A DNA stretch of 64,000 nucleotides from the NCBI RefSeq assembly GCF_900104945.1, contig NZ_LT629736.1, forward strand, positions 1,178,001 through 1,242,000. Reading direction: 5' to 3'. A model generated the notes under the pieces. The model was not told the origin of the DNA. It did no database searches and saw only the letters and a program-made list of their open reading frames with translations. The translations under genes and the position numbers were made by a program. This DNA comes from Halopseudomonas xinjiangensis (GTDB lineage: Bacteria; Pseudomonadota; Gammaproteobacteria; Pseudomonadales; Pseudomonadaceae). Shown piece by piece: positions 3,996-53,706 of the stretch. Numbering within the stretch: the stretch's first letter is position 1; each line of letters starts with the position of its first letter.

Positions 3996-4103
3996 AGTGG
4001 TGTCCTTGAGAGCTTCACTGGCTCTGGCATATCCGGGAAAACGTCAAGTGAATTAACTTCCGAAGAGCGGCAAAAATGATGAGCGTGCGTACTATTTCCG
4101 AAC

Positions 4104-4132
4104 TTGGCACGAGGATTAGGCAATGCGATATT
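4104..4132 (+). promoter_or_regulatory. sigma-70-type promoter of the CoiA-like moron
   Basis: TTGGCA (4104-4109), a 17-bp spacer and GATATT (4127-4132), 28 bp upstream of the ATG at 4161. The gene lies opposite to the surrounding operon, so it needs a private promoter. This is the best match in the 165-bp gap. Confidence 0.55.
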
Positions 4133-4160
4133 GGTGAGTAGGTCGATAAAGGGACTAGCG

Positions 4161-5084
4161 ATGAACGAGCCACGTAGACGAATACCGTACGCTTTACACA
4201 GAGATGGATGGGAGGCCGACCCGGCTCAAGTAGCGACGCTGCGGGCGATCGCTAATGAAGTCACGATTGACCAGTACTCGCCTGAAATGGAGGGGTCTAT
4301 CTTCTGCCCGCTTTGCGGAACGAATCTAAAGCGCGTACCCAAGTCCAAAGCGATCTTCAGTAATGAGCGAGAGCCATTTTTTTCCCACCAGCCCAAATGG
4401 CGACATGTTCGATGTGATCTGCGTTCTAAGAGGCCGGAGGGGAAACACTACGAGACGTGGGAAGAAGCGCGCCGCGCCGTAGAGAATGAAGAACTGGTAG
4501 TGATTAATGGTTTCATGCAAGGCGAGCCCGCTCTATCAGCCGCTGCTCCGGGTGAGTATCAAGAAACGATTGTCGAGGATGAAGAGGGGCCAGAAAGCAG
4601 CGTGCCCATAGGGAGACATGTCGGCGAAAATTTCACCGTTCCCAGTGTGGTGACGTCCGTGATGGGGATTTGCTCTCGTTTTGACACGCACCTATGGAAG
4701 TATTACCACTTGCCTGGCGCTGACAATGCCCGGCTGTTGGCCGATCTGCTGAGAGATGTAAAACAGGTGGACGACACCGAGGCTGTGCCTCGTTTGTACT
4801 TCGGGGTAGTCAGATCCGTGAGTGTGGCGGGTCAAGGTGGGCCCAACAACGTTTGTATGACGAGATTGGAATGCCACGAGGACGTCCGCGATTTCACCTT
4901 GAAAGTTTTGAATTCGACGGCTCAGCGCCGAGGACTGACCGCCAAGTCGGTTGGTCGTGTTGTGCTTGTCTATGGAGAAGTCACTCGCAGCGGGATTGGA
5001 CTTGCTGTCGAACATCCAAGCTGGGGTGAATGGGCGCTCCTTCCTGATAAATACAAGCCGTTACTTGGATTTTCGCCCGCGTGA
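4161..5084 (+). CDS. moron protein with CoiA-type zinc finger and possible OB-fold
   Basis: 307 residues from the ATG at 4161 (preceded by AAAGGGA). An earlier in-frame start at 4104 would lie inside the promoter. CPLC (49-52), then FFSHQ and RCDLR supply a C-C-H-C set resembling the N-terminal zinc finger of CoiA-like competence proteins. The C-terminal third (FTLKVLNSTAQRRGLTAKS and the following VLVYGEV stretch) reads like an OB-fold strand pattern. It is the only rightward gene among leftward early genes and has a more AT-rich composition than its neighbours. These are marks of a moron, possibly a superinfection-exclusion or nucleic-acid-binding factor (inference). Confidence 0.6.
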   Translation: MNEPRRRIPYALHRDGWEADPAQVATLRAIANEVTIDQYSPEMEGSIFCPLCGTNLKRVPKSKAIFSNEREPFFSHQPKWRHVRCDLRSKRPEGKHYETWEEARRAVENEELVVINGFMQGEPALSAAAPGEYQETIVEDEEGPESSVPIGRHVGENFTVPSVVTSVMGICSRFDTHLWKYYHLPGADNARLLADLLRDVKQVDDTEAVPRLYFGVVRSVSVAGQGGPNNVCMTRLECHEDVRDFTLKVLNSTAQRRGLTAKSVGRVVLVYGEVTRSGIGLAVEHPSWGEWALLPDKYKPLLGFSPA

Positions 5085-5099
5085 CATGCCGCCGTGACT

Positions 5100-5351
5100 C
5101 TACGGCTGGCGCAGAAACTCGCGCAGCTTCTCGTCAGGTAGGCGGGCGGCGTTGTGGATGAGGCGGGTCAGGGCGTCTTGCTTCTCTTCGAGGTCACACA
5201 CGGCCAGGACGCGGTCGAGGTGTTCGGCGGTAGCGTGGTAGACCTCGATCTGCAGGCGGTAGGCTAGGAGGCGGGCTTGCCGTTCTTCCTCGCGCAGCTT
5301 GTCGCGTTCGCGCTGCTCGCGCTTGCGCTCGGCGGCGGTCTTGGCTGACAT
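5100..5351 (-). CDS. small coiled-coil phage protein
   Basis: 83 residues. The basic, charged N-terminus (AAERKREQRERDKLREEERQ) is predicted helical, followed by LQIEVYHATAEHLDRVLAVCDLEEKQDALTRLIHN. It touches the DUF4406 gene upstream (shared base). Function unknown. It might be a ribbon-helix-helix-like DNA binder, but I cannot show it. Confidence 0.6.
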   Translation of the reverse strand: MSAKTAAERKREQRERDKLREEERQARLLAYRLQIEVYHATAEHLDRVLAVCDLEEKQDALTRLIHNAARLPDEKLREFLRQP

Positions 5352-5800
5352 CAGGTCGGCTCCAGCCGGTACCCGCGCTCGGCCTCCTGCTGGCGCTGTT
5401 GCTGCAGCTTGAAGTGCGCGGCGAGCGGCAGCTCTTTCACGGCGTAGTACACCGGTATGCCGAGGCGGCAGGCTTCGGCGATCTCGGCGCGGGTGCCGGC
5501 GCTGGCTTCGTGACCTGGTACGAGCACGACGGCGTCGCTGCGGCGCATGAGTTCAAGCGTTGCTTCGAGCCAGAACTCGTCTGGGATGGTCGGCGCGAAG
5601 AGGTCGAGGTCGCCGGTGTTGGCGTGAGGTATCAGCGCGGACCAGCCTTTCTCGATAGCGAGCAGGCCGACTGCGCGGGCGCTCTGGATATTGAGCGTGA
5701 CCCGGGCGCGGTTTCCGGCGCGGTAGGGGCCGGCGACGTAGACGACGGGCAGGCTTGTGCTGGCGACGAGGCGAGGCAGCGTGCGTTCTTGCGTTCCCAT
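5351..5800 (-). CDS. DUF4406 protein (nucleoside 2-deoxyribosyltransferase-like)
   Basis: 149 residues from the ATG at 5800. A longer frame exists, but this start sits 3 bp after the stop of the preceding gene. VVYVAGPYRAGNRARVTLNI, then GWSALIPHANT and the SDAVVLVPGHEASAGTRAEIAEACRLGIPVYY stretch follow the fold and spacing of the DUF4406/nucleoside deoxyribosyltransferase superfamily. The Asp, Ser and Glu positions correspond to the nucleotide pocket. A role in nucleotide salvage or modification during phage growth is likely but not shown. Confidence 0.75.
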   Translation of the reverse strand: MGTQERTLPRLVASTSLPVVYVAGPYRAGNRARVTLNIQSARAVGLLAIEKGWSALIPHANTGDLDLFAPTIPDEFWLEATLELMRRSDAVVLVPGHEASAGTRAEIAEACRLGIPVYYAVKELPLAAHFKLQQQRQQEAERGYRLEPT

Positions 5801-5802
5801 GG

Positions 5803-6258
5803 CTATTCCTTCACGGCGCGCGCGGCCGGGCTGTGGTTGAGCTCGATTCCGTTCTCCTTGGCGGCGCGTACGATCATTGCGTAGCTGACGCCAAGGCTTT
5901 TGGATATCTGCAGGGTGGTGCACTGCTTTTCGCGCATTGGTGCGATCTGCTTGGCCAGCTCTTTGCGTCGTTCGCGGGCCTTGGCTGACCTGACCTCGTG
6001 AAGACTGGCGACTTTCGCCTTGTTGTCGGGCTTCGGCTTGGCGCAGTGTTTATCAGCGATGTTCTTGAGCTTGGCAGCCTGCGCCTCGTCAGCGCTGGCG
6101 CGGTTGCGACTGCGCCAGGTGTTGATTACGGGGCGCTGCGGCTGGACCGGCTCGGTAACCGGTGGGCGGTTCTTGGCGAGGAAATCTTTCACCAGGGCGT
6201 CGAGCTCTTCGCGCTCGGCTTGTTTGGCGAGGACTTCGGATGTGAGCATGGAGGTCAT
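5803..6258 (-). CDS. phage protein with C-terminal helix-turn-helix
   Basis: 151 residues, starting at the ATG (6258) that overlaps the upstream stop codon by 4 bp. The middle is basic and probably disordered (NTWRSRNRASADEAQAAKLK). The end (REKQCTTLQISKSLGVSYAMIVRAAKENG) is a simple helix-turn-helix like those that select start or response sites. A DNA-binding accessory of the early operon is a reasonable guess. Confidence 0.6.
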   Translation of the reverse strand: MTSMLTSEVLAKQAEREELDALVKDFLAKNRPPVTEPVQPQRPVINTWRSRNRASADEAQAAKLKNIADKHCAKPKPDNKAKVASLHEVRSAKARERRKELAKQIAPMREKQCTTLQISKSLGVSYAMIVRAAKENGIELNHSPAARAVKE

Positions 6259-6551
6259 GATGCGGCTTTCCCTTCGCATTCTTGCCAGGCTTCCCACGCG
6301 GCTTGTGTCTCGCCGTAGCGATAGCCGCCGTGGTTGCTGCGGGTGATATCGAAACAGCGATCGACCGCCCAGGCTTCGAACCGGGCGCGCATGTCATCGC
6401 TGGGTGGCTGGTACGGGGCGAGGTGCAAGTATGTGCGTTCGTAGCGGTCCATGCCGGCCACCGGCAGCGGGAACTCAACGAACTGGGACTTGCCGCTGAC
6501 GTCTAGCACGCGGCCATCCATAGGGCCGCCTATGAAGCGGTGGGCTGTCAT
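6255..6551 (-). CDS. conserved phage protein
   Basis: 98 residues. It contains FIGGPMDGRVL near the start and a FEAWA...GYRYGETQAAWEAWQ end. That tail pattern (FEAW - aromatic - W - AW - W) recurs in many small early phage proteins of Pseudomonas and enterobacterial phages. Function unknown. It overlaps both neighbours by 4 bp. Confidence 0.65.
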   Translation of the reverse strand: MTAHRFIGGPMDGRVLDVSGKSQFVEFPLPVAGMDRYERTYLHLAPYQPPSDDMRARFEAWAVDRCFDITRSNHGGYRYGETQAAWEAWQECEGKAAS

Positions 6552-6772
6552 GGGGACACCCCATGCTTGGCCGTCGGCCAGCGCAACGGCATCCCGTCTG
6601 GTTGGATCAAGTGGTTCGGCTGGTCGTCTTTAAGGCATCCCGGCACGCTACCCGCTCCGCAGCTTTCACAGCGGGCCACATCGACGCCACGGCAAAGCGG
6701 GTGAAGCTGGACGTGCCCACTGCGGCAAGTGTTTGTACGCGCTTCATATTCGCTGCATGGAGTAAGCATCAC
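6548..6772 (-). CDS. small cysteine-rich phage protein
   Basis: 74 residues with about seven cysteines, including CESCGAGSVPGC and an N-terminal C...C...H spacing, so probably zinc-binding. It overlaps the flanking genes by 4 bp on both sides. Function unknown. Confidence 0.55.
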   Translation of the reverse strand: MMLTPCSEYEARTNTCRSGHVQLHPLCRGVDVARCESCGAGSVPGCLKDDQPNHLIQPDGMPLRWPTAKHGVSP

Positions 6773-7215
6773 TCCCCCCCTTGGTCTGGCCGCGCCTGCT
6801 CAGCGATCTGCTTTGCTACCCAAGCCCGCATCCGAACCCACCGTTGCTCCGGCGTTTCTTGCTCGTAGCTACCGGTGGTTGGGTTCCGTCGATACATTCC
6901 ACACTCGTCGTTCTCGTAAACGATTTCGCGCGCCAGGGCGTTAGCGATACCGAGCAGATTGGCGGCTTCCTCTGCATCTTCTGGATCGTTGGCTTTCAAG
7001 CCTCGTCCTGCAGCGACAACACCGAGCGTGCAGAACTCGCCGTCAGCTTCGAGCGCGCCTTCGACCAGTCGCTTCGATTCCATCGCGTCCATCTGCTCCA
7101 GTAGCTCGCGCAGGAACTGTTGGCCGCGCTTTCCTCGAATGGCTGAGTTAACCGCGCCTCGCCAACGGATAAGGTCCCAACCGCCGCTGTCGTCGCAATA
7201 TCCTGAACGGCTCAT
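6769..7215 (-). CDS. conserved phage protein
   Basis: 148 residues starting MSRSGYCDDSGGWDLIRWRGAVNSAIRGKRGQQFLRELLEQMDAM. This start is shared with a family of phage early proteins that I recognise but for which no function is known. The body is helical and acidic, ending EQARPDQGGE. Translation is coupled to the genes on both sides. Confidence 0.7.
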   Translation of the reverse strand: MSRSGYCDDSGGWDLIRWRGAVNSAIRGKRGQQFLRELLEQMDAMESKRLVEGALEADGEFCTLGVVAAGRGLKANDPEDAEEAANLLGIANALAREIVYENDECGMYRRNPTTGSYEQETPEQRWVRMRAWVAKQIAEQARPDQGGE

Positions 7216-7418
7216 GCCACCACCCTCAGCTGCGGCCGTGCTGGCGCCTGGCGGGCTTGTTCGAGCCGTTCGGCCTTGGCCAGGGCGTTGCTGTAGCTGG
7301 TGGCCCAGCCGACGACTGTGCCGCCGAGCGTGAGTTGCCAGAAGCCGCGGTCGTCGGGTTCGCTGGGAAGTACGCGGCGGCCGGCGGGCTTGATTACGAT
7401 GGTGGTGTGCATGGGCAT
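7212..7418 (-). CDS. small conserved phage protein
   Basis: 68 residues from the ATG at 7418, which has GAGG 8 bp upstream. A TTG 30 bp earlier would overlap the previous gene and has no ribosome-binding site. The product (TTIVIKPAGRRVLPSEPDDRGFW, then VVGWATSYSNALAKAERL) is a compact alpha/beta protein. Function unknown. Confidence 0.55.
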   Translation of the reverse strand: MPMHTTIVIKPAGRRVLPSEPDDRGFWQLTLGGTVVGWATSYSNALAKAERLEQARQAPARPQLRVVA

Positions 7419-7437
7419 GGTCACGTCCTCGTGATGG

Positions 7438-7812
7438 TTACACGTCAAATGTGTCGTCGATGAAGTCGTCGCGGCGTCCGCCGCGCTGGGTGCGGGTGAC
7501 GCGGTGTGGGCGTTGCATGTCGTCCGGTGCGCTGAGGCTGGCGCTGGTGCAGCAGACCATCAGCAGGAGGACGAGCGGGGCGATGATGGCGCGACGCATG
7601 GCTTCGGCGATCAGCTGGGCGCGGCGGGTGGCGCCGAGCTTGAACATGGCGCTGTATACGCGCTTGCGGACGCTGTCTGGCGCGAGGCCGGTTTCCCGGG
7701 CCATCTGCTTGTCGGTCTTGCCGGCGGCGACGCCGAGGGTGAACTCAAGTTCGCGCGGGCTGAGGATGCTGCCGACAAAGCCCTGCCAGTTGCCTCTGAT
7801 CATGGTGTCCAT
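7438..7812 (-). CDS. LuxR/GerE-type HTH protein with a membrane segment
   Basis: 124 residues. SPRELEFTLGVAAGKTDKQMARETGLAPDSVRKRVYSAMFKLG is a complete LuxR-type tetrahelical DNA-binding domain (about 18-60). A hydrophobic stretch follows (AIIAPLVLLLMVCCTSASL, about 75-93), then a basic tail. There is no sensory domain. A membrane-anchored HTH is unusual, and similar genes occur in Pseudomonas prophages. It may regulate the early operon or a host gene. Confidence 0.65.
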   Translation of the reverse strand: MDTMIRGNWQGFVGSILSPRELEFTLGVAAGKTDKQMARETGLAPDSVRKRVYSAMFKLGATRRAQLIAEAMRRAIIAPLVLLLMVCCTSASLSAPDDMQRPHRVTRTQRGGRRDDFIDDTFDV

Positions 7813-8030
7813 ACGTCACTCCCTGTGAATGTGTTGGCCGCTTACGCCCGGCCGGTCGCCCGTGTGTCGCCAGCGTCCGGGTGACGCTGCAATGGGGTCG
7901 CTTTCTCCCTGGCTTGCGGATTTCCTGCGGTGCGCCTTGCCTGTCCTGAGAACACAGGCGGGCCGTTGAGTAGAGACGGCCGGCTAACAGTCGCGGGCTT
8001 TGGCGATCCGCCGACGCGGTTGGGATGCTG

Positions 8031-8429
8031 TTACCCGCGAATCTGATCGCTCAGTTGCTTGATGCCGTCGAGCATCATTTGGAGCCGCTGTTCCTGGCTG
8101 GCAACAACGGACTGGGCGAGCGTGAAGGACCGAACTGCTTCGGTGATGGCGAGCATCTTGCGCCGCGCCTCGTCAGCCTGGCGTTCGGCGTATTCGGCAC
8201 GGCGCTTAAGATCAATCTTCTGGTAGATCTCGTCATCGTCGTCGTCTTCATCGAAGTACTTGCCCAGCACCTCGGCGCCCGTCGCTTTCGCGGCCAGCTC
8301 CTCGATTCGCGCAACGAGATACTCCTCTCGGGGCGTGGTCGGTTCGATGACCGAGCGGATATGCTCGGGACGAGCTTCTCTGGCGATGACGGGTACGCCG
8401 GGCTGCCCGATCCAGTAGTCTGAAAACAT
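8031..8429 (-). CDS. acidic coiled-coil phage protein (first gene of the PL transcript)
   Basis: 132 residues. The leftward frame has an acidic run (DEDDDDDE) and long helical segments (KRRAEYAERQADEARRKMLAITEAVR). An equally long rightward frame covers the same DNA, but it reads as low-complexity shadow and lacks a start site. It is the first substantial gene after PL and nutL. Function unknown. It has no arginine-rich N-type motif. Confidence 0.55.
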   Translation of the reverse strand: MFSDYWIGQPGVPVIAREARPEHIRSVIEPTTPREEYLVARIEELAAKATGAEVLGKYFDEDDDDDEIYQKIDLKRRAEYAERQADEARRKMLAITEAVRSFTLAQSVVASQEQRLQMMLDGIKQLSDQIRG

Positions 8430-8695
8430 CGCAAACCCTCCATGTTGGTTTCCCGGATGGCCCTGTCGCCAAGGCCATCGAGGAAACAGCCCTTACCAGT
8501 CCGCCAGGGTGGGGCGGGGCGCGGAGCGTGCCGGGTCATTCGCTCGGTTCGGTCGTACCAACCTCGTCCGCCGTCGGGTTCGTCCCGCGTGGGCAGGCTC
8601 ATGCCTGTCGGATCGCCGGTCGCCGGTAGAGGCTGCGCGGTCTGTTTCATCAGGTTTACTGTTCTCCCCCTGAGGGTTGCCGGGAGTGACCTATG

Positions 8696-8710
8696 CCCAG
8701 CGATGCTGGG
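8696..8710 (-). promoter_or_regulatory. boxB-like hairpin of a nutL site
   Basis: Read leftward it is CCCAG-CATCG-CTGGG, a 5-bp stem with a 5-nt loop, the geometry of lambda boxB. It lies 20 nt downstream of the boxA-like element in the PL leader. Confidence 0.4.
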
Positions 8711-8730
8711 GGTAGTCGTTCATGGCGCTG

Positions 8731-8744
8731 ATTGTTAATGAGCG
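8731..8744 (-). promoter_or_regulatory. boxA-like antitermination element
   Basis: Read leftward it is CGCTCATTAACAAT, differing from the rrn boxA sequence TGCTCTTTAACAAT at two positions. It sits about 45 nt into the PL transcript, where nutL is expected. Confidence 0.5.
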
Positions 8745-8790
8745 TGGGGTCTCTTCGCCCCGGTGCGGCCTGCTGGCCGGCTTGGAACCA

Positions 8791-8820
8791 AATATGAACT
8801 ACAGGTACACATCAAGTCAA
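8791..8820 (-). promoter_or_regulatory. prophage leftward early promoter PL
   Basis: On the minus strand, TTGACT (8820-8815) is followed by 17 bp and TCATAT, or by 18 bp and CATATT (ending 8791). Two copies of the repressor-operator sequence overlap or abut it (8796-8809 and 8821-8834). It drives the leftward early genes down to int. Confidence 0.7.
8796..8809 (-). promoter_or_regulatory. operator OL (site 1)
   Basis: TGTACCTGTAGTTC on the minus strand, lying between -35 and -10 of PL. It matches the four-site consensus TGTACYNNNRGTTC shared with the cI-cro region. Confidence 0.7.
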
Positions 8821-8834
8821 GAACCATAAGTACA
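8821..8834 (-). promoter_or_regulatory. operator OL (site 2)
   Basis: TGTACTTATGGTTC on the minus strand, directly upstream of the PL -35 element and 25 bp from site 1. It matches TGTACYNNNRGTTC. Confidence 0.7.
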
Positions 8835-8930
8835 TATTTTTCGTGAGCGGCTTCGCGACCTGGCGGTCACGGAATGCCAGGGTTTGCGGCCGATGGTAAG
8901 GTGCCGGCTCCACAGGAGGGAGGACTCGAT

Positions 8931-9170
8931 ATGCATACGAAGGATTGCGCACGCCTGGCAGGCTTGCTGCTGGCACCGGCCGGGCTGATCGTGATTGGTT
9001 CGCTGGCGCTGATGATGCTACCGATCCGCCCACCGGGGAGTACGGGTTATGAGCTGGACCCGATGCGGTGGGTGCCGGTAGGTTTGACGTTTGGTGGGTT
9101 GGTTTGGCTGACCGCAGCGATGGGGCGGTTGGTCAAATGGGAGTTCGAGGCGGAGCGGGAGGAGGGGTAG
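8931..9170 (+). CDS. small two-helix membrane protein in the immunity region
   Basis: 79 residues with a strong ribosome-binding site (AGGAGGGAGGACTCGAT before the ATG). Two hydrophobic segments are visible: LAGLLLAPAGLIVIGSLALMML (about 8-30) and WVPVGLTFGGLVWLTAAMG (about 47-66). A charged tail follows (VKWEFEAEREEG). It lies between the OL/PL region and the shared terminator, transcribed toward the defence operon. Small inner-membrane proteins in this position of lambdoid phages are often superinfection-exclusion proteins, but that is inference from position. Confidence 0.6.
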   Translation: MHTKDCARLAGLLLAPAGLIVIGSLALMMLPIRPPGSTGYELDPMRWVPVGLTFGGLVWLTAAMGRLVKWEFEAEREEG

Positions 9171-9189
9171 GGCGCAGGGCTACAAAAGC

Positions 9190-9211
9190 AAGGCCCGCAG
9201 AGGCGGGCCTT
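9190..9211. terminator. bidirectional terminator between the membrane-protein gene and the DUF262 gene
   Basis: AAGGCCCGC-AGAG-GCGGGCCTT, a 9-bp perfect stem with a 4-nt loop between two convergent genes, flanked by an A-rich side and TTATTCTT. It closes both the rightward small gene and the leftward cI-dcm-FRG-DUF262 operon. Confidence 0.8.
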
Positions 9212-9216
9212 ATTCT

Positions 9217-10353
9217 TCACACGAGGCGAGGATGCGGTCTGAAGCGCCGCAGATGCCTAAGCAATATTTCATACCGGCCGGACAACGAGTTCTGGTCGTT
9301 TGTCGTTCTGCCCATTGTGTAGTAATTCATCAACTCAGGGTCAGCCCTTTCCGGAGCCGTTCTCGACAGCTGCAGAGCTTCTTTTACCCGGGTGGTAAAT
9401 TCTTCCAAGAAATCGCGCAGAACTCCTTTGCACAGATCCGGGTTCTCTCGCACTAACCAATAGTAAACTGGGATGTGCCCTTGGCTACCCAGCAGAGGAT
9501 CGCGATCTCGGAATTCAGCGGCCATACTATCGAGCGTGAATAACGCTTTTTCTTCGGTATCCCGGTACTTCTCTAACAATGTTTGCCGTTCCTCCTCAGA
9601 AAGGCGAGGCCCACGTTTGCGGAACCCTTGGACAAAGTACGCTGCTCCTTGCTCGGCGAACTGATCCAGGTTCCGTGCCTTGGTATCAGTGAAACCGCCT
9701 TTGTACTCTATCAGCGCAAGTTTCGCGGCAAGGTTAAATTCCTGCATCCGCGATACATTGAAACGAATTTTGTTCATAAAAAAACGATTCGCAGTGATCT
9801 GTCTGATGACTGCTGTCGCGGGACCAGGGACTGCGTTGCGCTTTTCTGCGGAAGTAGTAGACATTCCGCTGTTCAGCCGCGTAAACATCTCTGTGATTTT
9901 AAGTTCATCATCCGTCACAATACTCATTACGGTCGGGACGTAATTTTCGAGCTTCGAAGCTAGCTTAGGATAGCGCTGCTGTACTTGCGCGAATGTCATG
10001 CCGGCAGCTTCCACGCTGGGATCTGCATCTAACGCAAAAGATTGGTTCAGCGGGAACTGGTTCGCGAGGAAATCGAAGAAAGCGCCGAATCGTTGCTTTC
10101 CATCGACGATAGAGTATGGTTTGCGAGCAGGGTTGAGTTCCGCGCTGCTGGATCGCGTGAAGTCCGCGACATAGAGTTTGGGGATGTCGAAGTCGTTTAG
10201 AACGGAGTCGATCAAATGTGCCTTTTTCCACTGGCTCCACAAGTTCCCCCGACGTTGATACTGGGGTTCCAGATCAAGCTGAGCTTGCTCATTCTGCGAA
10301 GCCCACCACCTGAGCGGACGGGGCTCGTGCTGAGTTACTCTGAAATGGCTCAT
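9217..10353 (-). CDS. DUF262-domain protein (ParB/Srx-fold, GmrS-like), putative defence effector
   Basis: 378 residues. The DUF262 signatures are YQRRGNLWSQWKKAHLIDSVL (32-52), IVDGKQRFGAFFDFL (82-96, the DGQQR-type motif) and MFTRLNSGMSTTSAEKRNA (156-174). In GmrSD, BrxU and SspE this domain hydrolyses nucleotides and is usually joined to a DUF1524 HNH nuclease. None is present here; the C-terminal half is helical and ends NYYTMGRTTNDQNSLSGRYEIL. The start overlaps the FRG gene stop by 4 bp, so the two are translationally coupled. It is the last gene of the cI operon and is more AT-rich than the phage genes. The nuclease or toxic activity, if any, must come from the FRG partner or from an unrecognised domain. 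Confidence 0.8.
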   Translation of the reverse strand: MSHFRVTQHEPRPLRWWASQNEQAQLDLEPQYQRRGNLWSQWKKAHLIDSVLNDFDIPKLYVADFTRSSSAELNPARKPYSIVDGKQRFGAFFDFLANQFPLNQSFALDADPSVEAAGMTFAQVQQRYPKLASKLENYVPTVMSIVTDDELKITEMFTRLNSGMSTTSAEKRNAVPGPATAVIRQITANRFFMNKIRFNVSRMQEFNLAAKLALIEYKGGFTDTKARNLDQFAEQGAAYFVQGFRKRGPRLSEEERQTLLEKYRDTEEKALFTLDSMAAEFRDRDPLLGSQGHIPVYYWLVRENPDLCKGVLRDFLEEFTTRVKEALQLSRTAPERADPELMNYYTMGRTTNDQNSLSGRYEILLRHLRRFRPHPRLV

Positions 10354-11210
10354 GCGAAAAATCCATTCATCCGTTTGATCTCCAAAGCGAGCCCCTGGTG
10401 ATCAGGGTACGCCACCGAGTCAGTATATCCAATGCAGAGCAAGTCGCGTAACAGCGCTTCGATATTCTCTTCCTTAATTACAAGTTCTTTCAGGCAGTTT
10501 TCTGGATAGCGCTTGGATTCGAATATCTTATCCATTGAATCCACACTCTTTCCGAATATGGTGAACACTCCCTTTTGCGCAAACATGCGCGCATTGTTAG
10601 CTGTGCCTAATATGGCCACAGGATCTTCGTACATGCCCACCTTTTCGGAGACCGTATAGTTGAGTCTCGGGAGATAACTGTTCAGTGTGCCGCTGTCCGG
10701 CGGCACCGGCCCGCGCTCGCCATAGGAGACCTGAACGAGCGATGCTTGGTTCCAAGACCACGGGTTCAAAATCCATACAGAGGCTGGTTCGGTATACTTC
10801 CCCCTTTTTTTACCGCGCTCTGCATCGGTGAGCGCAAAGTAGAGGGCAATAAAGGGGTTTGACGTCCAATCCAGCAGCCGCGTCGGTACGCCGTAATGCT
10901 GCATATAAAAAAGGGTGTCTATCTTCTCTTCTTCGTCTTTGTTCAACGAAGGAATCTGGTGCAATGTTCCCTGCCGTCTGAATTCCCGGATCATTCGCGA
11001 CTCTAGGTCCAGGAGATCATTTGCCTCCTTAACAGACGGATGGCGATACAAACTGGGCTTGAGAGCATAGGATCGCATCCCATGGCCGCGGTACCAGTTA
11101 TTGAGGTGAGCATCGTTCGCGTTTTCGGCTCTCGATGCCGTGAGCGCACCTTCAATGCAGCTCGCAAATGAGCTGAGCGAGTCCACTTCGATTCTCTTCG
11201 GCTTTGCCAT
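10350..11210 (-). CDS. FRG-domain protein
   Basis: 286 residues. The FRG domain is clear: NNWYRGHGMRSYALKPSLYR (38-56, with YRG for FRG) and the highly conserved MQHYGVPTRLLDWTSNPFIALYFAL block (103-127). The family name refers to the conserved F-R-G triplet. Its biochemical activity is not established, but it recurs near toxins and phage-defence genes. It starts 13 bp after the methyltransferase stop and overlaps the DUF262 gene. I infer an effector role in a three-gene module. Confidence 0.85.
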   Translation of the reverse strand: MAKPKRIEVDSLSSFASCIEGALTASRAENANDAHLNNWYRGHGMRSYALKPSLYRHPSVKEANDLLDLESRMIREFRRQGTLHQIPSLNKDEEEKIDTLFYMQHYGVPTRLLDWTSNPFIALYFALTDAERGKKRGKYTEPASVWILNPWSWNQASLVQVSYGERGPVPPDSGTLNSYLPRLNYTVSEKVGMYEDPVAILGTANNARMFAQKGVFTIFGKSVDSMDKIFESKRYPENCLKELVIKEENIEALLRDLLCIGYTDSVAYPDHQGLALEIKRMNGFFA

Positions 11211-11223
11211 CTTCAGTCCTTGT

Positions 11224-12219
11224 TTAGGCAGCTTTATCGCGCGTGACGTCTAGCTGGTCGCTCGTGTGTTGCTGTAGCAGGAATCTTTCGCAAACTCGCG
11301 CGACGGCATTTGCAAGAAGTGGCGGGACGGCGTTGCCGATTTGCATGATATTGGAAGTCGCCGAATGCGGAAAAACGAAGTCGTCGGGAAACGTCTGCAG
11401 CCGCGCGCACTCTCTAATAGTTAGTCTTCTCTGGAGAGAGTAGTGGAACTGAACACGAGACTTGGCATTAGCTCTTACCGTATATCCGGGCTTTCCTGCC
11501 TGCGATATTTCGTCGCCTTGGCCATGGCCGTTTTTCGCTCGGTTGGCTTTGAAATACTGACTCTGATTTGGGACGCTCTCGTCGTGAACACCAACCAGAT
11601 CCCCAATAGCCCATTCAATTGATCGGTGGCTATCCGCGTACTGCGGGAGCGGCTTGTCCGGAAAACCGGAAATGTCGTTCCGGACGCCGACGATGAAGAC
11701 TCGATAACGTGCTTGCGGCACCCCGTAGTCCGCAGCGTTGAGGCGCCAACACTCGACCCGGTAGCCCGCCTCACGAAAATCTCCCAAGATTCTTTCGATT
11801 ACCTTTCCCTTATGCATGGTCAAAATATTTGCAACATTTTCAGCAACGAACATTTTCGGTTGGTGTATGGCGCAATATTGGACTAGCGAAGAGTAAAGTC
11901 GGCCGCGCTCTGATCCCAATCCCTTCCGGGGGCCACAAATCGAGAAGTCCTGACACGGGAAGCCGCCTATGAGCAAGTCGGCGCGGACCATCCCCGCAAC
12001 GCAAGCTTGTGAAAGATCAGCACGATGGAAATGGTTGCCGATATTTTGCTTGTAGGTAATTTCGCAGAGCGGGTCGAGCTCGAACGCTTGCTCTATTTCG
12101 AAAGCCGTCCTGGGCACCGATTCACCCTTAAAGTGAAAGCCACCTTGAAACCCTAAATCCAAGCCGCCACAACCAGCGAAAAATGAGGCTACCGAGAAGG
12201 TTTCGGTCTGTGCTTGCAT
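11224..12219 (-). CDS. DNA (cytosine-5) methyltransferase
   Basis: 331 residues from the ATG at 12219; a TTG at 12255 overlapping the cI stop would add 12 residues. The C5-methyltransferase motifs appear in order: I FAGCGGLDLGF (14-24, SAM binding), IV GGFPCQDFS (85-93, catalytic Cys89), VI ENV (127-129), VIII QARYRVF (169-175), and X QIGNAVPP near the C-terminus. The target-recognition region lies between VIII and IX (about 180-270). The target sequence cannot be read from the protein. It follows cI directly, so it should be expressed in the lysogen and mark host and prophage DNA. No cognate type II endonuclease is adjacent; the partners are FRG and DUF262. Confidence 0.95.
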   Translation of the reverse strand: MQAQTETFSVASFFAGCGGLDLGFQGGFHFKGESVPRTAFEIEQAFELDPLCEITYKQNIGNHFHRADLSQACVAGMVRADLLIGGFPCQDFSICGPRKGLGSERGRLYSSLVQYCAIHQPKMFVAENVANILTMHKGKVIERILGDFREAGYRVECWRLNAADYGVPQARYRVFIVGVRNDISGFPDKPLPQYADSHRSIEWAIGDLVGVHDESVPNQSQYFKANRAKNGHGQGDEISQAGKPGYTVRANAKSRVQFHYSLQRRLTIRECARLQTFPDDFVFPHSATSNIMQIGNAVPPLLANAVARVCERFLLQQHTSDQLDVTRDKAA

Positions 12220-12251
12220 TATGATTGTCTCTTCAGGCGCCCAGCGGCGGT

Positions 12252-13082
12252 TCAAAGTTTATGCGCGTTCCAGACAAGAAGAGCGCGGGCGTGTACGGTA
12301 ACCTCGGCGATCGGAATCTGGAAGGGGTCGTGCTCGCGGTTATCCGAGATGACTTTGAAGTGCGTCTTGGACTCTTTCTGAAGGCGTTTGATGTAGACCA
12401 GGTCGTCCCAGGTGAACACGTAGACGCCGTCGCCGTTGAAGGCGTTGACCCCGCGGTCGACGAACACTGGCTCACCGTGGTTGATGGTGCCGGCCATGCT
12501 CTGACCCCAGCCGGTGATCAGCGCGAGGTTGGCGGGGCTGGTATAGGTGATGCCGAGCATGTCCAGATGCGATTTGTGCATCGTGACATGGCGGATGATC
12601 TCGACGTAGTCGTTCGGCAGCTGGCCGCTGCCCATGGCTGCGCGTACGTTGAATTGGGGTATCGATAGTTCGCCAGTCTTGTCCTTGGCGGAGAAATCAG
12701 CAGCGATCACGTTGCTCTCCTTTTCCCTTACTGGGTAGCCGGCTTCCCGGTCGGCATCGCCCGTCGCATACCTAAAAGCTTGGTCTGCGTCGGAATTCAT
12801 GGGTCCTTCCCCGTACTGCAACCACTCAACCCGCACGCCAAGTTCGCGGGCAATGCTCCGCATATTGGCCCGGCCGGGCATCGATTCTTCGTTCAGCCAC
12901 TTGCTTGCTGCTTTGGGGGTCGTGCCGGTGACTTGCGCCAGGCGAACGCCCGCGCCCCATTCGCCGATCCCTGCGGCGGCTAAGGCTTGCTTCAAGCGCA
13001 AAACAAAAGCGCGGCGGAGATCATTGGACTGAACCATAGGTTCAGCATCGCATTTCCTTGCATGTACTTTCAGTTCCGCCAT
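12252..13082 (-). CDS. cI: prophage CI-type repressor (HTH + S24 peptidase)
   Basis: 276 residues from the ATG at 13082, or 261 from the ATG at 13037. The first start overlaps the PR -10 region and neither has a strong ribosome-binding site, so the start is uncertain. An XRE-type HTH lies at about 43-75 (GVRLAQVTGTTPKAASKWLN). The LexA/CI-type S24 domain shows the cleavage region AAMGSG (148-153), nucleophile Ser195 (GWGQSM) and Lys232 (YIKRL), so RecA-stimulated self-cleavage is expected. It maintains lysogeny by binding the TGTACYNNNRGTTC operators and is the first gene of the methyltransferase/FRG/DUF262 operon. Confidence 0.93.
   Translation of the reverse strand: MAELKVHARKCDAEPMVQSNDLRRAFVLRLKQALAAAGIGEWGAGVRLAQVTGTTPKAASKWLNEESMPGRANMRSIARELGVRVEWLQYGEGPMNSDADQAFRYATGDADREAGYPVREKESNVIAADFSAKDKTGELSIPQFNVRAAMGSGQLPNDYVEIIRHVTMHKSHLDMLGITYTSPANLALITGWGQSMAGTINHGEPVFVDRGVNAFNGDGVYVFTWDDLVYIKRLQKESKTHFKVISDNREHDPFQIPIAEVTVHARALLVWNAHKL
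13030..13044. promoter_or_regulatory. possible third OR operator (symmetric)
   Basis: TGAACC-ATA-GGTTCA is a perfect inverted repeat within the 5' end of cI. It shares the GGTTC half-site of the other operators and 9 of 14 positions with OL site 2. It could be the OR3-like autoregulatory site. Confidence 0.45.
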
Positions 13083-13087
13083 AATAT
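13058..13087 (+). promoter_or_regulatory. prophage rightward early promoter PR
   Basis: TTGCAT (13058-13063), 18 bp, TAATAT (13082-13087), about 36 bp before the cro ATG. One operator lies in the spacer (13063-13076) and the next immediately after the -10 (13087-13100), so repressor binding would block it. Confidence 0.6.
13063..13076 (+). promoter_or_regulatory. operator OR (spacer site)
   Basis: TGTACTTTCAGTTC, matching TGTACYNNNRGTTC. It lies between the -35 and -10 elements of PR. Confidence 0.7.
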
Positions 13088-13100
13088 GTACTCGAAGTTC
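13087..13100 (+). promoter_or_regulatory. operator OR (downstream site)
   Basis: TGTACTCGAAGTTC, matching TGTACYNNNRGTTC, 24 bp from the spacer site and abutting the PR -10. Confidence 0.7.
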
Positions 13101-13122
13101 AAATTCATAAGGGCGCTAGACC

Positions 13123-13350
13123 ATGAGCTCTATCAAACTGGCAATTCAGAAGGCGGGCGGTCCGGCGCGTGCCGCACAGCTCTGCGGCATCAGTTCGCGG
13201 GCTATCTACAAGTGGATCTCTAGCGGCTCGCTACCTCGCACGGAGTACACCGGCGAGACCGACTATGCGCAGCGTCTCGCGGCTGCATCGGAGGGCGCGT
13301 TCACGGCTGAATGGCTTCTCGAAGAAGCCTCGCCGAGCAAGGCCGCCTGA
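13123..13350 (+). CDS. cro: Cro-like repressor
   Basis: A 75-residue YdaS/Cro-type HTH protein, divergent from cI: IKLAIQKAGGPARAAQLCGISSRAIYKWISSGSLPRTEYTGETDYAQRL. The HTH spans about 17-37. As first gene of the PR transcript it should repress cI transcription and damp early promoters during lytic growth through the same operators. Confidence 0.88.
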   Translation: MSSIKLAIQKAGGPARAAQLCGISSRAIYKWISSGSLPRTEYTGETDYAQRLAAASEGAFTAEWLLEEASPSKAA

Positions 13351-13351
13351 C

Positions 13352-13444
13352 ATGAACAGATTACTGCGGTGCACGCTTTGCCATCAGCCCACTCGCAGTG
13401 CTGTGCAGCCATACAGGAGTTTTGACCTTCAGCACGATCGATAG
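13352..13444 (+). CDS. possible 30-residue CxxC peptide
   Basis: The frame opens one base after the cro stop codon and has a CTLCHQP motif (one CxxC). The ribosome-binding site is poor and no relative is recognised. It is listed because the spacing suggests translational coupling with cro. It may equally be leader RNA. Confidence 0.25.
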   Translation: MNRLLRCTLCHQPTRSAVQPYRSFDLQHDR

Positions 13445-13530
13445 CTAGGCCTGCCGGAGCGGCAGGAAAGGGCGCCTACGGGCGGGTCAGGAACGTGACG
13501 GGATAAGTCGCGGTAGACGAGAAGGAAGCC

Positions 13531-13794
13531 ATGAAGGCCAAACAGTGTGATACCCCGGCTGCGCCTGGAGCGAGCCGAGCAGTAACCAAGGCAGAAAGGG
13601 CGCTGGCTCGTTACTTGAGGTCCGGCTCAGGGTTGGTCCGCTGCGCTTTAGTTTCAGTTCCCCGACCGAATGCTTCCCCGCGTTGCTTGCCGACGAATGG
13701 TCAGGCTGCGCGCGGGAAGTGTTTTGTGCAGGCAATAAAAAACCCCGGCTATTGGGTGACCGCCCAGCCGGGGCTTGTTACATCAGAGAGGTGA
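13531..13794 (+). CDS. possible small protein upstream of the antirepressor
   Basis: 87 residues with a fair ribosome-binding site (GAAGGAAGCC before the ATG). It ends 3 bp before the antirepressor ATG. The sequence is basic and low in hydrophobic pattern, and its last third runs through the leftward terminator hairpin, which argues against strong selection on the protein. The 13351-13796 gap otherwise holds no recognised gene. Confidence 0.3.
   Translation: MKAKQCDTPAAPGASRAVTKAERALARYLRSGSGLVRCALVSVPRPNASPRCLPTNGQAARGKCFVQAIKNPGYWVTAQPGLVTSER
13735..13773 (-). terminator. leftward rho-independent terminator (OOP-like RNA)
   Basis: On the minus strand AGCCCCGGCT pairs with AGCCGGGG across a 15-nt loop and is followed by TTTTTTATT. 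The plus-strand side has no T-run, so it ends leftward transcripts. No leftward protein gene lies to its right. Confidence 0.7.
13737..13787 (-). ncRNA. candidate OOP-like antisense RNA over the antirepressor leader
   Basis: A leftward promoter (13794-13822) and the leftward terminator (13735-13773) define a transcript of about 50 nt. Its 5' end is complementary to the ribosome-binding site of the antirepressor gene (AGAGAGGTG). In lambda, OOP RNA occupies the equivalent place between cII and O. Existence of the RNA is inference from the two signals. Confidence 0.45.
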
Positions 13795-13822
13795 TTATGA
13801 ACACTGATGTCATGTTGGGCAA
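13794..13822 (-). promoter_or_regulatory. leftward promoter of the candidate antisense RNA
   Basis: On the minus strand TTGCCC (13822-13817), a 17-bp spacer and CATAAT (13799-13794; five of six consensus bases). The -10 overlaps the antirepressor start codon. Confidence 0.5.
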
Positions 13823-14501
13823 TAGTGCGCCGGTGGCGTGGATGAGTAGCCAGGAGATAGCTGACCTGGTGGAGTCGCGGCACGACAGCGTGAAGCGGAC
13901 GGTGGAGCGGCTGGTGGATCGGGGCGTTATATCCCAACCACCATTGGTGGATGGGCCGCGCTCCGGCAATGGGGTGGTGGTACAGGCGTATCGGATCAGC
14001 AAGCGCGACAGCTATGTGGTGGTGGCGCAGCTGTGCCCGGAGTTCACGGCGCGCTTGGTGGACCGGTGGCAGGCGCTGGAGGCGCAGGTGATGCAGCCGT
14101 CCGTGCCGCGCTCACTGCCGGAGGCATTGCGCCTGGCTGCCGACCTGGCCGAGCAGAACAACACGCTGCGGCTGGTGGTGCAGGAGCAGGCGCCACAGGT
14201 GGAAGCGCTGGCGCGCATATCCGCTGCGAGCGGGACGTTGTGCCTGACGGATGCGGCGAAGCACCTGGGCGTGCAGCGCAAGGCGTTGCTGGAGTGGATG
14301 CAGGCGAACCGCTGGATCTATCGGCGTGAGGGCGCGGCGCGCTGGTTGGCCTATCAGCCGCGGCTGCAGGCTGGGTTGCTGGAGCACAAGGTGACGGTGC
14401 TGGGTACCGAGGAGGATGGTGCGCAGCGGCTTGCGTCACAGGTGCGTGTCACGCCGCGTGGTTTGACGGTGCTGGCGCAGAAACTTGGGAGGGCCTGCTG
14501 A
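13797..14501 (+). CDS. phage antirepressor (Rha-type N-terminus, KilAC C-terminus)
   Basis: 234 residues from the ATG at 13797 (GAGAGGTGATT upstream); the frame is open further upstream without a better start. The N-terminal Rha domain reads WMSSQEIADLVESRHDSVKRTVERLVDRGVI and KRDSYVVVAQLCPEFTARLVDRWQALE. The C-terminal KilAC/ANT domain reads LCLTDAAKHLGVQRKALLEWMQANRWIYRR, then VTPRGLTVLAQKL. Proteins of this architecture are phage regulators or antirepressors that promote lytic development or block IHF-dependent host functions. It is coupled to the replication gene by a TGATG overlap. Confidence 0.88.
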   Translation: MNTDVMLGNSAPVAWMSSQEIADLVESRHDSVKRTVERLVDRGVISQPPLVDGPRSGNGVVVQAYRISKRDSYVVVAQLCPEFTARLVDRWQALEAQVMQPSVPRSLPEALRLAADLAEQNNTLRLVVQEQAPQVEALARISAASGTLCLTDAAKHLGVQRKALLEWMQANRWIYRREGAARWLAYQPRLQAGLLEHKVTVLGTEEDGAQRLASQVRVTPRGLTVLAQKLGRAC

Positions 14502-42978: not shown

Positions 42979-43077
42979 CTACCCAAGCATTGGCATGGGC
43001 AGGTTATAAACTACGATCCATAGCTCGACGAGCTTGATCAATAGTTGAACTACTTCCGTAAGGAATAAGATTTTCAT
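42979..43077 (-). CDS. 32-residue hydrophobic peptide with structured leader
   Basis: The frame MKILFLTEVVQLLIKLVELW continues with IVVYNLPMPMLG: one amphipathic-to-hydrophobic helix in a visibly AT-rich stretch, ending at a leftward terminator. The ribosome-binding site is only AGG directly against the ATG. The upstream RNA has two hairpins (43213-43260 and near 43085-43102). Size, hydrophobicity and structured leader recall type I toxin peptides, but no antisense RNA has been identified. Confidence 0.4.
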   Translation of the reverse strand: MKILFLTEVVQLLIKLVELWIVVYNLPMPMLG

Positions 43078-43212
43078 CCTATTGAACCTTTGTACGAACG
43101 TTGATGTTCGTCGGCCGGTTTCAACCTTAAGTTGACAGGGTCGTCATCTTTTCCCAGTATAGAGAGGCTTATCGCTGTACCGAGAGATCGTCCTAGCCGA
43201 CGGTTCTTTCGC

Positions 43213-43260
43213 AAGCTTTCGTGCGGATTTGCGCGCTAACGCTCTTTCGCATGAAAGCTT
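43213..43260 (-). other. long inverted repeat (possible structured leader or sRNA)
   Basis: AAGCTTTCRTGCG arms of 13 bp (one mismatch) with a 22-nt loop. On the minus strand it follows a very strong ribosome-binding site and a three-codon frame (AAGGAGGTAACTATGGAAGAG then TAA), which looks like a leader-peptide or translation-standby element. The rest of 43078-43498 is AT-rich with no protein gene I can support. Confidence 0.45.
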
Positions 43261-43498
43261 TTTATTTACTCTTCCATAGTTACCTCCTTGCCCAGTGGCT
43301 TGGCTTAGGTGCGGTTGAATCGTAGCACCAACTGCCAGCCATGTTATCAGCTGCGTTTGCTTCTCCAATACTACACAGACATTCTGTCCTTTATTGTGGT
43401 AATCCGACGAACGGTAGTTTACTTAAGCAAATAAATATGCAGGCCATAATTAGGTCCTTTTGAGGCCCTCTTTCGGGACTCATAGCTATGGCGGGGAT

Positions 43499-43741
43499 TC
43501 AGTCTTCCTTTACGCAACAATCCACTGCAGCCTCAACCAATGCTCGCCGCCCGGCAACTGTGTCCAGGTCCTTCGCGCCCATCTTCATATCGGTATCAAG
43601 GCGTTCAGCGTCGCTCTGATCCTCCAGCGGGTTCCAGCCTTCCTTGTCCAGGGTGATGTTGCACAACGTGCCGTCACCGCAGTTCTGTATTTCGTATCCC
43701 GCGGCAGCGCCGGCGCGCTCCATCAGATGTTTGTCAGTCAT
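43499..43741 (-). CDS. conserved small phage protein
   Basis: 80 residues, acidic, five cysteines. MTDKHLMERAGAAAGYEIQNCGDGTLCNITLDKEGWNPLEDQSDAERL is a pattern common to phage early proteins in Pseudomonas. It follows the SRAP gene by 16 bp, so it is probably in the same SOS operon. Function unknown. Confidence 0.6.
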   Translation of the reverse strand: MTDKHLMERAGAAAGYEIQNCGDGTLCNITLDKEGWNPLEDQSDAERLDTDMKMGAKDLDTVAGRRALVEAAVDCCVKED

Positions 43742-43757
43742 ATCGTTCCCCTTTTGG

Positions 43758-44441
43758 TTAAATCTCTCGCTCGATCAGATGGCTGCCTTCGTTGCGCACG
43801 TTCCCAACCGCTTTATCGACGGGAAACCACTCAAAGGCTTCGACTGGTTCGGCATGGTGTCGCGCCAGATCTTCGGCGCGCTCGGGTAGCAGCCCCGGCT
43901 CCAGCCATTCCCGCGCTACGTCAGGCGGCAGCACCACCGGCCGGCGATCGTGAATATCCACCATGCCTTGGTCGCTATCCGCTGTGATGATAGCGAAGCC
44001 GCCTGTGTCGTCCTCGTCCTTTGGCAGCTGTGCGATCGCAGCCATGAGCATGGGCGCATCGCTCGCGTGGCGGATGTAGTAGGGCTGCTTCTTCTTCGGA
44101 TCGTTCGGATCCTTTACCCATTCAAACCAGCCGTCCGCAGGCACCAGGCACCGGCCGGTGCACCATATTCCCTTCCAGAACTTGCTCGTCGCGGCTGTCT
44201 CAAGCCTGGCGTTGATGGGAGGCGGGCGCTTGCCCTTCGCCCAGAATGGGGCATAGCCCCAGCGGACCGGCTCAACATGCAGTTGGTCGTCATGCTCGTG
44301 GATGATCTGCACTTGGGTGCTCGGAGGCACGTTGTAGCGCGCGATCGGTGCATCGCTGGGAGGGGAGGCGAGCCGCTTCGGGCTGGCCAGGTAGCGCATG
44401 TACTGTTGTAGAGCTCGGTGCTGGGCGATGCGTCCGCACAT
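43758..44441 (-). CDS. SRAP-domain protein (YedK/HMCES-like)
   Basis: 227 residues from the ATG at 44441, so that Met is followed by the obligatory Cys2 (MCGRIAQ). Family landmarks are RYNVPPSTQVQII, RWGYAPFWAK, INARLETA, CLVPADGWFEW (Glu) and VDIHDRRPVVL (His). SRAP proteins crosslink Cys2 to abasic sites in single-stranded DNA and shield them from cleavage. A phage copy under probable SOS control would protect replicating phage DNA. A longer frame to 44477 would abolish the N-terminal Cys and is rejected. Confidence 0.92.
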   Translation of the reverse strand: MCGRIAQHRALQQYMRYLASPKRLASPPSDAPIARYNVPPSTQVQIIHEHDDQLHVEPVRWGYAPFWAKGKRPPPINARLETAATSKFWKGIWCTGRCLVPADGWFEWVKDPNDPKKKQPYYIRHASDAPMLMAAIAQLPKDEDDTGGFAIITADSDQGMVDIHDRRPVVLPPDVAREWLEPGLLPERAEDLARHHAEPVEAFEWFPVDKAVGNVRNEGSHLIEREI

Positions 44442-44500
44442 GGAAGGTCCTCGTTTGTTACTTCGAGGATAGGACACTGTTCAGCACGACGTGGCTCAGG

Positions 44501-45050: not shown

Positions 45051-45100
45051 TGCATGGGGTGCAAGGGGTCGAGTGTTCGAATCACTCCGTCCCGACCAAA
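45051..45100 (+). repeat. attR: 50-bp core repeat
   Basis: Perfect copy of 884-933 (3' part of tRNA-Pro). The sequence before it does not complete a tRNA, so only the left copy is a gene. Marks the right end of the prophage. Confidence 0.95.
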
Positions 45101-45802: not shown

Positions 45803-45869
45803 TCGATGGACGTTTTGAACGCTAGCCGGGCAGACAACACGGCCAAAAATCCAGGAAAGTGAATTGTTC

Positions 45870-49864: not shown

Positions 49865-49877
49865 CAAGGACTGCCGT

Positions 49878-53030: not shown

Positions 53031-53031
53031 T

Positions 53032-53706
53032 ATGGAACTGGCCTATAAGGTTGTCTACTCAAAGCGCAAGAGCTTAACCATCTCGGTCGAGCGTGACCGC
53101 TCTATCGTAGTGAAGGCCCCGGAAGGCACAACGCTAGAAAAGATTCATCGGGTCGTGGAATCGCGCAAGCTGTGGCTTTACGAAAAGACCCGCCATGCGC
53201 AGAAATACAGCCCGCTTCCGCATCCGCCAGGTAAGGAGCTGGTGTCCGGAGAATCCCTGCCCTACTTGGGACGGCATTACCGCATTGAGTTGGTGGCAGG
53301 CGATGGCGGGATCCGCTTCGAGCAGAAATTCCTGGTACCGCAGGCGTTAGCGGGCAAGTCAGCGGCATTCCGGAATTGGTTCGTGGCGCGCGCCGAGGAG
53401 AAAATACTGCCGCGCGTGAAGATGTACGCCAACAGCCTCGGGGTCACTTACAAGGAAGCCAAAGTCGGGGACGGCAAATACCGCTGGGGTTCGTGCACAC
53501 CGAACGACAACGTGATCTTCAACTGGCGCTTGATCAAGGCGCCTATGTTCGTGATCGACTATGTAGTAGTGCACGAGCTGGCCCACCTTATCGAACCTAA
53601 CCACACGCCCCGTTTCTGGAACATCGTGAACGCACAGGCGCCAACAATGGATAAAGCCAAGGCTTGGCTACAGAAGCATGGCGCTCTGCTGGAGCAGGAT
53701 ATTTGA
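53032..53706 (+). CDS. YgjP-like (DUF45) metallopeptidase associated with the RM locus
   Basis: 224 residues starting 1 bp after hsdR. It has an HExxH zinc site in YVVVHELAHLIEPNHTPRFW, preceded by the family landmark KYRWGSCTPNDNVIFNWRLIKAP. YgjP-like genes are often the last gene of hsdMSR operons. The role there is not known to me; control of subunit turnover is one possibility. Confidence 0.88.
   Translation: MELAYKVVYSKRKSLTISVERDRSIVVKAPEGTTLEKIHRVVESRKLWLYEKTRHAQKYSPLPHPPGKELVSGESLPYLGRHYRIELVAGDGGIRFEQKFLVPQALAGKSAAFRNWFVARAEEKILPRVKMYANSLGVTYKEAKVGDGKYRWGSCTPNDNVIFNWRLIKAPMFVIDYVVVHELAHLIEPNHTPRFWNIVNAQAPTMDKAKAWLQKHGALLEQDI

Follow-up and report, generated by a model that had tools for sequence, protein, structure and literature searches.

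A methyltransferase-FRG-DUF262 cassette in a Halopseudomonas prophage as a possible restriction-modification-like antiphage system

Introduction

Restriction-modification (R-M) systems are the textbook combination of self-marking and cutting of non-self DNA. What, then, might be the role of a cytosine methyltransferase gene that is followed not by a recognisable endonuclease gene but by genes for proteins of the FRG and DUF262 families? This question is raised by a 64,000-nucleotide stretch of the Halopseudomonas xinjiangensis genome (assembly GCF_900104945.1, contig NZ_LT629736.1, positions 1,178,001 to 1,242,000; hereafter the window, whose numbering is used throughout), in which genes for a C5 cytosine DNA methyltransferase and for one member each of the FRG and DUF262 families lie behind the cI repressor gene of a probable prophage (Table 1). 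A sequence-only reading of the window had proposed the three genes as a candidate defence system. The analysis presented here establishes FRG-DUF262 as a genuine two-gene unit and the methylase as a conditional partner of that pair, and leads us to favour, tentatively, a prophage-carried R-M-like antiphage system in which DUF262 would sense, FRG would act and the methylase would protect self.

FRG and DUF262 form a conserved pair

When bacterial genome contigs were scanned with the window's DUF262 protein alone as query, no relative was confirmed; a second scan, with a 17-row DUF262 alignment as query, gave 186 relatives, the best 80 of which were kept (contigs from metagenome-assembled genomes in this survey are short). 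FRG was found directly upstream of DUF262, on the same strand and within 60 bp, in 74 of these 80 genome relatives, and this neighbourhood check, proposed by the sequence-only reading, shows that the two families do not occur independently at random. Among the six loci that failed the adjacency, one lies at a contig edge (L121), three have a nearby but shifted FRG match (L122, L131, L137) and two have no detected FRG (L156, L168). The commonest junction between the two genes, by longest open reading frame (ORF), is a 4-bp overlap, present in 40 of the 91 pair loci, a set that still includes near-copies (L048/L158/L162 and L050/L146), and the FRG gene ends in ATGA, GTGA or TTGA in 46 of the 91. 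Moreover, pairwise identities of FRG and DUF262 co-vary across 84 loci (Pearson 0.90, Spearman 0.81; none of 500 shuffles was as high), so the two genes travel together. The pair is thus near-obligate when seen from DUF262. This part of the proposed three-gene system stands, while the trio is not the unit: in 69 of the 91 pair loci the available sequence shows no C5 methylase up to 7 kb away, and the trio was rejected as the conserved unit in favour of a conserved pair with a clade-linked methylase.

According to record titles and taxonomy labels, the pair spans about a dozen phyla, among them Pseudomonadota, Bacteroidota, Myxococcota, Actinomycetota, Chloroflexota, Acidobacteriota, Verrucomicrobiota and Planctomycetota, and it is also found on a Hymenobacter plasmid. 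In 50,697 phage records there was no DUF262 match covering 80% of the protein. Most of the FRG genes seen lack a DUF262 partner, with 70 unpaired FRG loci in viral contigs and phage records. In class-level samples that include the window's own genome, FRG was present in 29 of 274 genomes and a DUF262 relative (E <= 1e-10) in eight of 369. The FRG and DUF262 profiles of the survey as a whole were in part built from sequences that were later counted.

A C5 methylase is a conditional partner of the pair

Of the 91 pair loci, 22 have a C5 methylase no farther than 7 kb away, as has one of the 70 FRG-only loci, the latter comprising 68 viral contigs and two phage records (Fisher 1.7e-5; the methylase profile was built from six pair-locus methylases and could favour the pair set, yet it found distant C5 methylases too). 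Within 2 kb the counts are 19 and one, respectively, and the methylases of L141, L192 and L197 lie 2.8-6 kb from the pair. Among genome loci, 17 of the 74 adjacent pairs (17 of 80 overall) have a C5 methylase, against none of 32 FRG-only and none of seven DUF262-only controls, which are 4.5-15 kb long and have shorter flanks. It was likewise absent from a further set of 27 DUF262-only loci; this set counts five places twice, many of its loci extend 1.5 kb to each side, and two begin at the edge of a contig.

When the neighbours of 95 pair loci, taken as longest frames and some of them spurious, were clustered, C5 methylases turned up in 23 loci (with one place counted twice), GIY-YIG nucleases in 14 and Vsr in 12. 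Other groups belong to large, widespread families: the largest consists of ABC-transporter ATPase-like proteins, present at scattered distances in 14 loci, of which two were confirmed as ABC_tran, and groups that we labelled LysR-like, integrase-like and response-regulator-like appear in five loci each. Among the 129 immediate neighbours of methylase-free pairs, the commonest Pfam family has three members and the commonest PADLOC family two.

A nuclease is retained in at least 12 of the 22 methylase-bearing loci, mostly of Eco29kI type. RE_Eco29kI scores above the Pfam cut-off in 11 of them (L033, L038, L119, L161, L164, L175, L177, L183, L185, L186 and L191); in L190 and L197 the score falls short of that cut-off, and L128 carries RE_NgoFVII. 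The idea of FRG-DUF262 as a general replacement of the nuclease is therefore not upheld. Two arrangements among these loci can be mentioned separately. In L180 (3103-6210) a C5 methylase, a 366-aa protein without Pfam match that may be an unrecognised restriction enzyme, and Vsr precede FRG-DUF262, all codirectional; and L164 (8112-9541) and L183 (1023-6947) each have two RE_Eco29kI genes near the pair, only one of which adjoins the C5 methylase.

The methylase link outlasts methylase exchange

The methylase trait is clustered on a tree of 88 DUF262 proteins: it needs 11 changes there, against 19.8 in shuffles, none of 500 being as low. The window's DUF262 falls in a clade with L119, L031, L046, L120, L032 and L033 (support 100/100), of which six of the seven members have a methylase; the remaining member, L031, is truncated by the start of its contig. 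The methylases of L032 and L046 are of the window's HaeIII-like kind (57% and 62% identical), whereas those of L119, L120 and L033 belong to another lineage, about 26% identical to the window's, with nearest relatives that adjoin Eco29kI-type nucleases. Identities of 57-59% link the L120 methylase with those of L119 and L033 and with those of the Eco29kI-bearing L164 and L161, and these last two loci are placed elsewhere on the DUF262 tree. Single-linkage grouping at 40% joined 20 of 25 methylases through intermediates.

Orientation and nuclease vary within the clade along with methylase lineage. The order methylase-FRG-DUF262 with no nuclease gene between is found in the window, L032 and L046, the last with Vsr behind; L120 repeats this order, but a LEM-3-type GIY-YIG protein immediately precedes it; in L119 an Eco29kI nuclease stands between methylase and FRG; and L033 has a divergent Vsr-methylase-Eco29kI nuclease group. 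The methylase link is therefore a trait of the clade that has outlasted exchange of the methylase itself, and the presence of a C5 methylase in all six readable loci, despite varying lineage, argues for a functional coupling of the pair to 5-methylcytosine (5mC).

Another effector module is found behind a relative of the window's methylase on viral contig L201, where a 59% identical methylase is followed, after 7 bp, by genes for a GHKL ATPase and an Mrr_cat/ResIII protein and by a third gene; this locus has neither FRG nor DUF262. A nuclease module can therefore stand behind such a methylase in the place that FRG-DUF262 takes in the window. The L201 run (4878-10576), possibly an R-M-like operon, lies beside phage-like genes, and its third gene encodes a 195-aa protein without assigned family.

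Features of the three proteins

The best match of the methyltransferase in the PDB is M.HaeIII (1dct, 1.4e-37), and its sequence carries PCQ, ENV and QxRxR, which we take to be core motifs of C5 methyltransferases and which appear to be intact. Searching solved structures by sequence yielded no useful match for either FRG or DUF262, and both were modelled as single chains. The FRG model resembles ADP-ribosyltransferases with a weak Z score, and PMC9503650 places FRG in the ADP-ribosyltransferase superfamily. Model and literature together make FRG a candidate for an ADP-ribosyltransferase fold, and would be compatible with an activity of that type; the earlier description of FRG as lacking a known activity is to be corrected in that this superfamily assignment predicts one, and the model agrees weakly with it. 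Across 84 sequences E70 and H105 of FRG are invariant and R41 is present in at least 90%.

The DUF262 protein carries the motif IVDGKQR, a ParB/Srx nucleoside triphosphatase (NTPase) motif, and its model resembles BrxU, the best structural match, as well as SspE and ParB. No nuclease domain, DUF1524 included, was matched in the DUF262 and FRG proteins (Pfam, E <= 0.001). The comparison with GmrSD, BrxU and SspE made in the sequence-only reading needs the correction that the DUF1524 nuclease domain is missing here.

Layout of the cassette and the slot behind cI

The features of the cassette are collected in Table 1.

Table 1. Features of the cassette and its flanks, in window coordinates.
Feature	Coordinates	Strand	Basis
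CI-like S24 repressor (helix-turn-helix + S24 peptidase)	12252..13082	-	Pfam Peptidase_S24 1.7e-19 + PHROG match
C5 cytosine DNA methyltransferase	11224..12219	-	Pfam DNA_methylase PF00145 3.5e-66
FRG protein, candidate effector	10350..11210	-	Pfam FRG 1.1e-23
FRG/DUF262 stop/start overlap, ATGA, 4 bp	10350..10353	-	ORF coordinates
DUF262 (GmrSD_N, PF03235) ParB/Srx-type protein, candidate NTPase sensor/switch	9217..10353	-	Pfam 1.4e-12
Intrinsic-terminator-like hairpin, GC-rich, T-rich tail	9189..9212	-	Terminator scan

ORFs, Pfam matches and the hairpin scan bear out the codirectional order cI, C5 methyltransferase, FRG, DUF262 and terminator-like hairpin that had been described, and the coordinates confirm both the 13-bp gap between methyltransferase and FRG and the overlap of FRG with DUF262. 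The longest ORF of the methyltransferase runs from a TTG at 12255 to 11224, the ATG at 12219 being the likelier start. The terminator scan is by itself no evidence for a terminator, since it gave six terminator-like sites against 5.5 in shuffles; the hairpin at 9212-9189 has the longest stem among the scanned sites and lies directly after the DUF262 stop. No RNA element was found in an Rfam search of 8000-14000, and a promoter scan gave fewer sites than its own shuffles and identified no cassette promoter. As expected from the sequence-only reading, the cassette is AT-richer than the phage around it, with 52-54% GC in the 1-kb bins of 9001-12000 against 60-67% in most other prophage bins, a few of which are equally low (4001-5000, 43001-44000). 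An IMG/VR contig of 48.8 kb has the same cassette, with 100% identical proteins.

An exact 50-bp repeat at 884-933 and 45051-45100, the first copy of which overlaps the 3' end of a tRNA-Pro gene (855-931), probably represents attL and attR of a 44-kb prophage, and the element looks like a complete one. Five CI loci of the same genus (L254-L258) were fetched for comparison, and none of the five has FRG or DUF262. In L254 and L255 the phage DNA to either side of the slot matches that of the window, in L254 in stretches 67-82% identical, yet other genes lie behind cI: an HSDR_N protein, a KilA-N protein matching BstA and one further gene in L254, and NA37 with one protein without assigned family in L255. 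The proposal that the cassette is transferred cargo is supported by this comparison. Because same-genus relatives hold differing genes there, the position behind cI is a slot for exchangeable, partly defence-like cargo, and cI belongs to the slot of this prophage rather than being a constant part of the system, contrary to the linkage that had been proposed. L257 and L258 have only short DNA in common with the window, and the Pfam scan of the cargo covered the other three loci. L256 matches the window at cI only; behind its related cI (4414-7510) lie genes for a PD-Lambda-5_A-like protein, which we read as ParB-like, and for a protein of 319 aa without assigned family, and, on the other strand, a C5 methylase gene.

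The CI repressor is a phage component outside the cassette proper, at the head of an operon that is presumably expressed in the lysogen. The position of the slot is consistent with lysogen expression, and the cassette would, judging from its place, be cotranscribed with cI.

A possible mode of action and its alternatives

According to the reading that we favour, the C5 methyltransferase would mark self sites, so that DUF262, a ParB-type NTPase monitoring DNA as a switch, would stay quiet. A phage genome without the methyl mark would trigger DUF262, which would in turn activate FRG; this effector would act on nicotinamide adenine dinucleotide (NAD+) or on a cellular target, with no cutting of DNA, and the infected lysogen would stop growing or die before the phage matures. 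Gating by methylation had already been proposed from sequence; the association of methylase and pair agrees with it, and from that association we infer the gating itself. Since related pairs are widespread among bacteria, the cassette looks like an unnamed antiviral system, one that may poison the cell instead of cutting DNA. A more specific formulation, which we regard as rather doubtful at present, is a methylation-gated suicide system. Its R component would combine a switch, the ParB-type NTPase, with an ADP-ribosyltransferase that uses NAD+; like a restriction enzyme it would read the methyl mark that separates self from non-self, but it would respond by shutting down the cell, and it could be coupled to various 5mC methylases, whether or not these have a nuclease. 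If this is true, R-M and abortive infection would meet in a module that retains the mark but has an NAD+-using effector in place of the cutting enzyme. The FRG family, which has no solved relative by sequence search, would then gain a testable role.

The strongest rival draws on the nuclease that is retained in at least 12 of the 22 methylase-bearing loci, in 11 cases an Eco29kI-type enzyme over the Pfam cut-off. In this reading the pair would be a self-contained abortive second line that responds to failed restriction or to its products, the cues being anti-restriction proteins or DNA that has been cut or is under-methylated. It would adjoin C5-methylase R-M because the signal arises there, the window's nuclease having since been lost. 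The presence of Vsr in 12 of the 95 pair loci, the occurrence of methylase-pair loci in all orientations and the lack of a methylase in reach of most pairs would all fit such a role. On the other hand, the three codirectional operons (window, L032, L046) have a methylase and no nuclease between, and what is constant in the window's clade is the methylase, not the R component. We consider this second-line role doubtful in its own right and nearly as likely as methylation-gated defence; both treat the methylase link as functional. If it is true, a suicide switch would be attached to Eco29kI-type restriction and, in either case, the pair, found in about a dozen phyla, is small (approximately 2 kb) and easily cloned.

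Orphan methylases are common in phages, and the varied cargo behind cI, together with the absence of any family with more than three members beside methylase-free pairs, could suggest that the window's methylase and pair are independent neighbours, i.e. an orphan enzyme protecting the phage from host restriction and a separate FRG-DUF262 defence cassette in the same slot. This is unlikely: the FRG-only and DUF262-only controls make a neighbourhood without function less probable, the association with methylases in pair loci far exceeding that in FRG-only loci, and in one clade it persists despite the change of methylase lineage.

Still less probable is a modification-dependent, type IV-like activity, in which DUF262 would recognise 5mC or another modified cytosine, FRG would be the effector and the local methylase would make a context that is not recognised. 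BrxU, the best structural match of the DUF262 model, and GmrSD act on modified cytosine (PMC10952713). Against this, an operon that also encodes a 5mC methylase would risk self-attack, and 5mC methylases are enriched beside pairs, not avoided. Finally, the position behind cI could point to lysogeny or stability genes coupled to CI and not to defence, such as an addiction module gated by methylation, in which cells that lose the prophage are punished and the methylase serves as antidote, as in R-M post-segregational killing, but this is highly improbable, with CI repressor families in only two of the 129 immediate neighbours of methylase-free pairs and BstA-like and HSDR_N genes in the same slot of a related prophage.

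Relationship to known systems

No named system with these three parts was found in PADLOC-DB or in the searchable open-licence literature, as the sequence-only reading had supposed. The window's DUF262 domain with its ParB/Srx NTPase motif is shared with GmrSD and BrxU, whereas the cassette differs from them in having no DUF1524 HNH domain, a separate upstream FRG gene and a resident C5 methylase. In PADLOC the best match of the DUF262 protein is NsnA (1.7e-27, residues 18-269; a similarity, with no curated cut-off), which we take to be the DUF262 component of Menshen. DUF262 is paired with an OLD-type nuclease according to PMC10952713; its partner in the window is instead FRG, and no OLD match was obtained in the four cassette and cI proteins or in four scanned downstream ORFs (6769-9167, not every ORF). 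The only other PADLOC match of the protein is PD-T4-2_A (5.9e-12); HEPN is listed for PD-T4-2 in PMC10952713, and a DUF262-HEPN link appears in PMC3710099, while the cassette has FRG instead of HEPN, for which its proteins gave no Pfam match.

With type II R-M (Eco29kI, NgoFVII, HaeIII-like) the cassette shares a C5 methylase with an operonic partner, and relatives of the pair adjoin R-M of the Eco29kI and NgoFVII types, often with Vsr; the window cassette has no restriction endonuclease gene, cI, methylase, FRG and DUF262 filling 13082-9217 with no nuclease family match among them. The FRG protein matches the PADLOC models for PDC-S15, a single-gene FRG candidate (9.1e-43), and differs from it as one half of a near-obligate pair with DUF262. 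NCBIfam gave no match for the FRG or the DUF262 protein, and the FRG-DUF262 combination is unreported in the open-licence literature searched, a scope outside which a 2025 paper on Menshen domain polymorphism falls. GmrSD, Menshen, PD-T4-2 and type II R-M each have a defining part that was sought here and not found; we therefore place the cassette with none of them and regard it as a variant within DUF262-based and R-M-like defence.

Two further features were noted toward the prophage's right end. Next to the probable attR, on its outer side, the host chromosome carries a type I R-M operon (HsdM, HsdS, HsdR) with a YgjP-like peptidase gene at 45864-53706, and an AT-richer bin near the right end of the prophage holds a gene for an SOS response associated peptidase (SRAP) at 43758-44477 on the minus strand.

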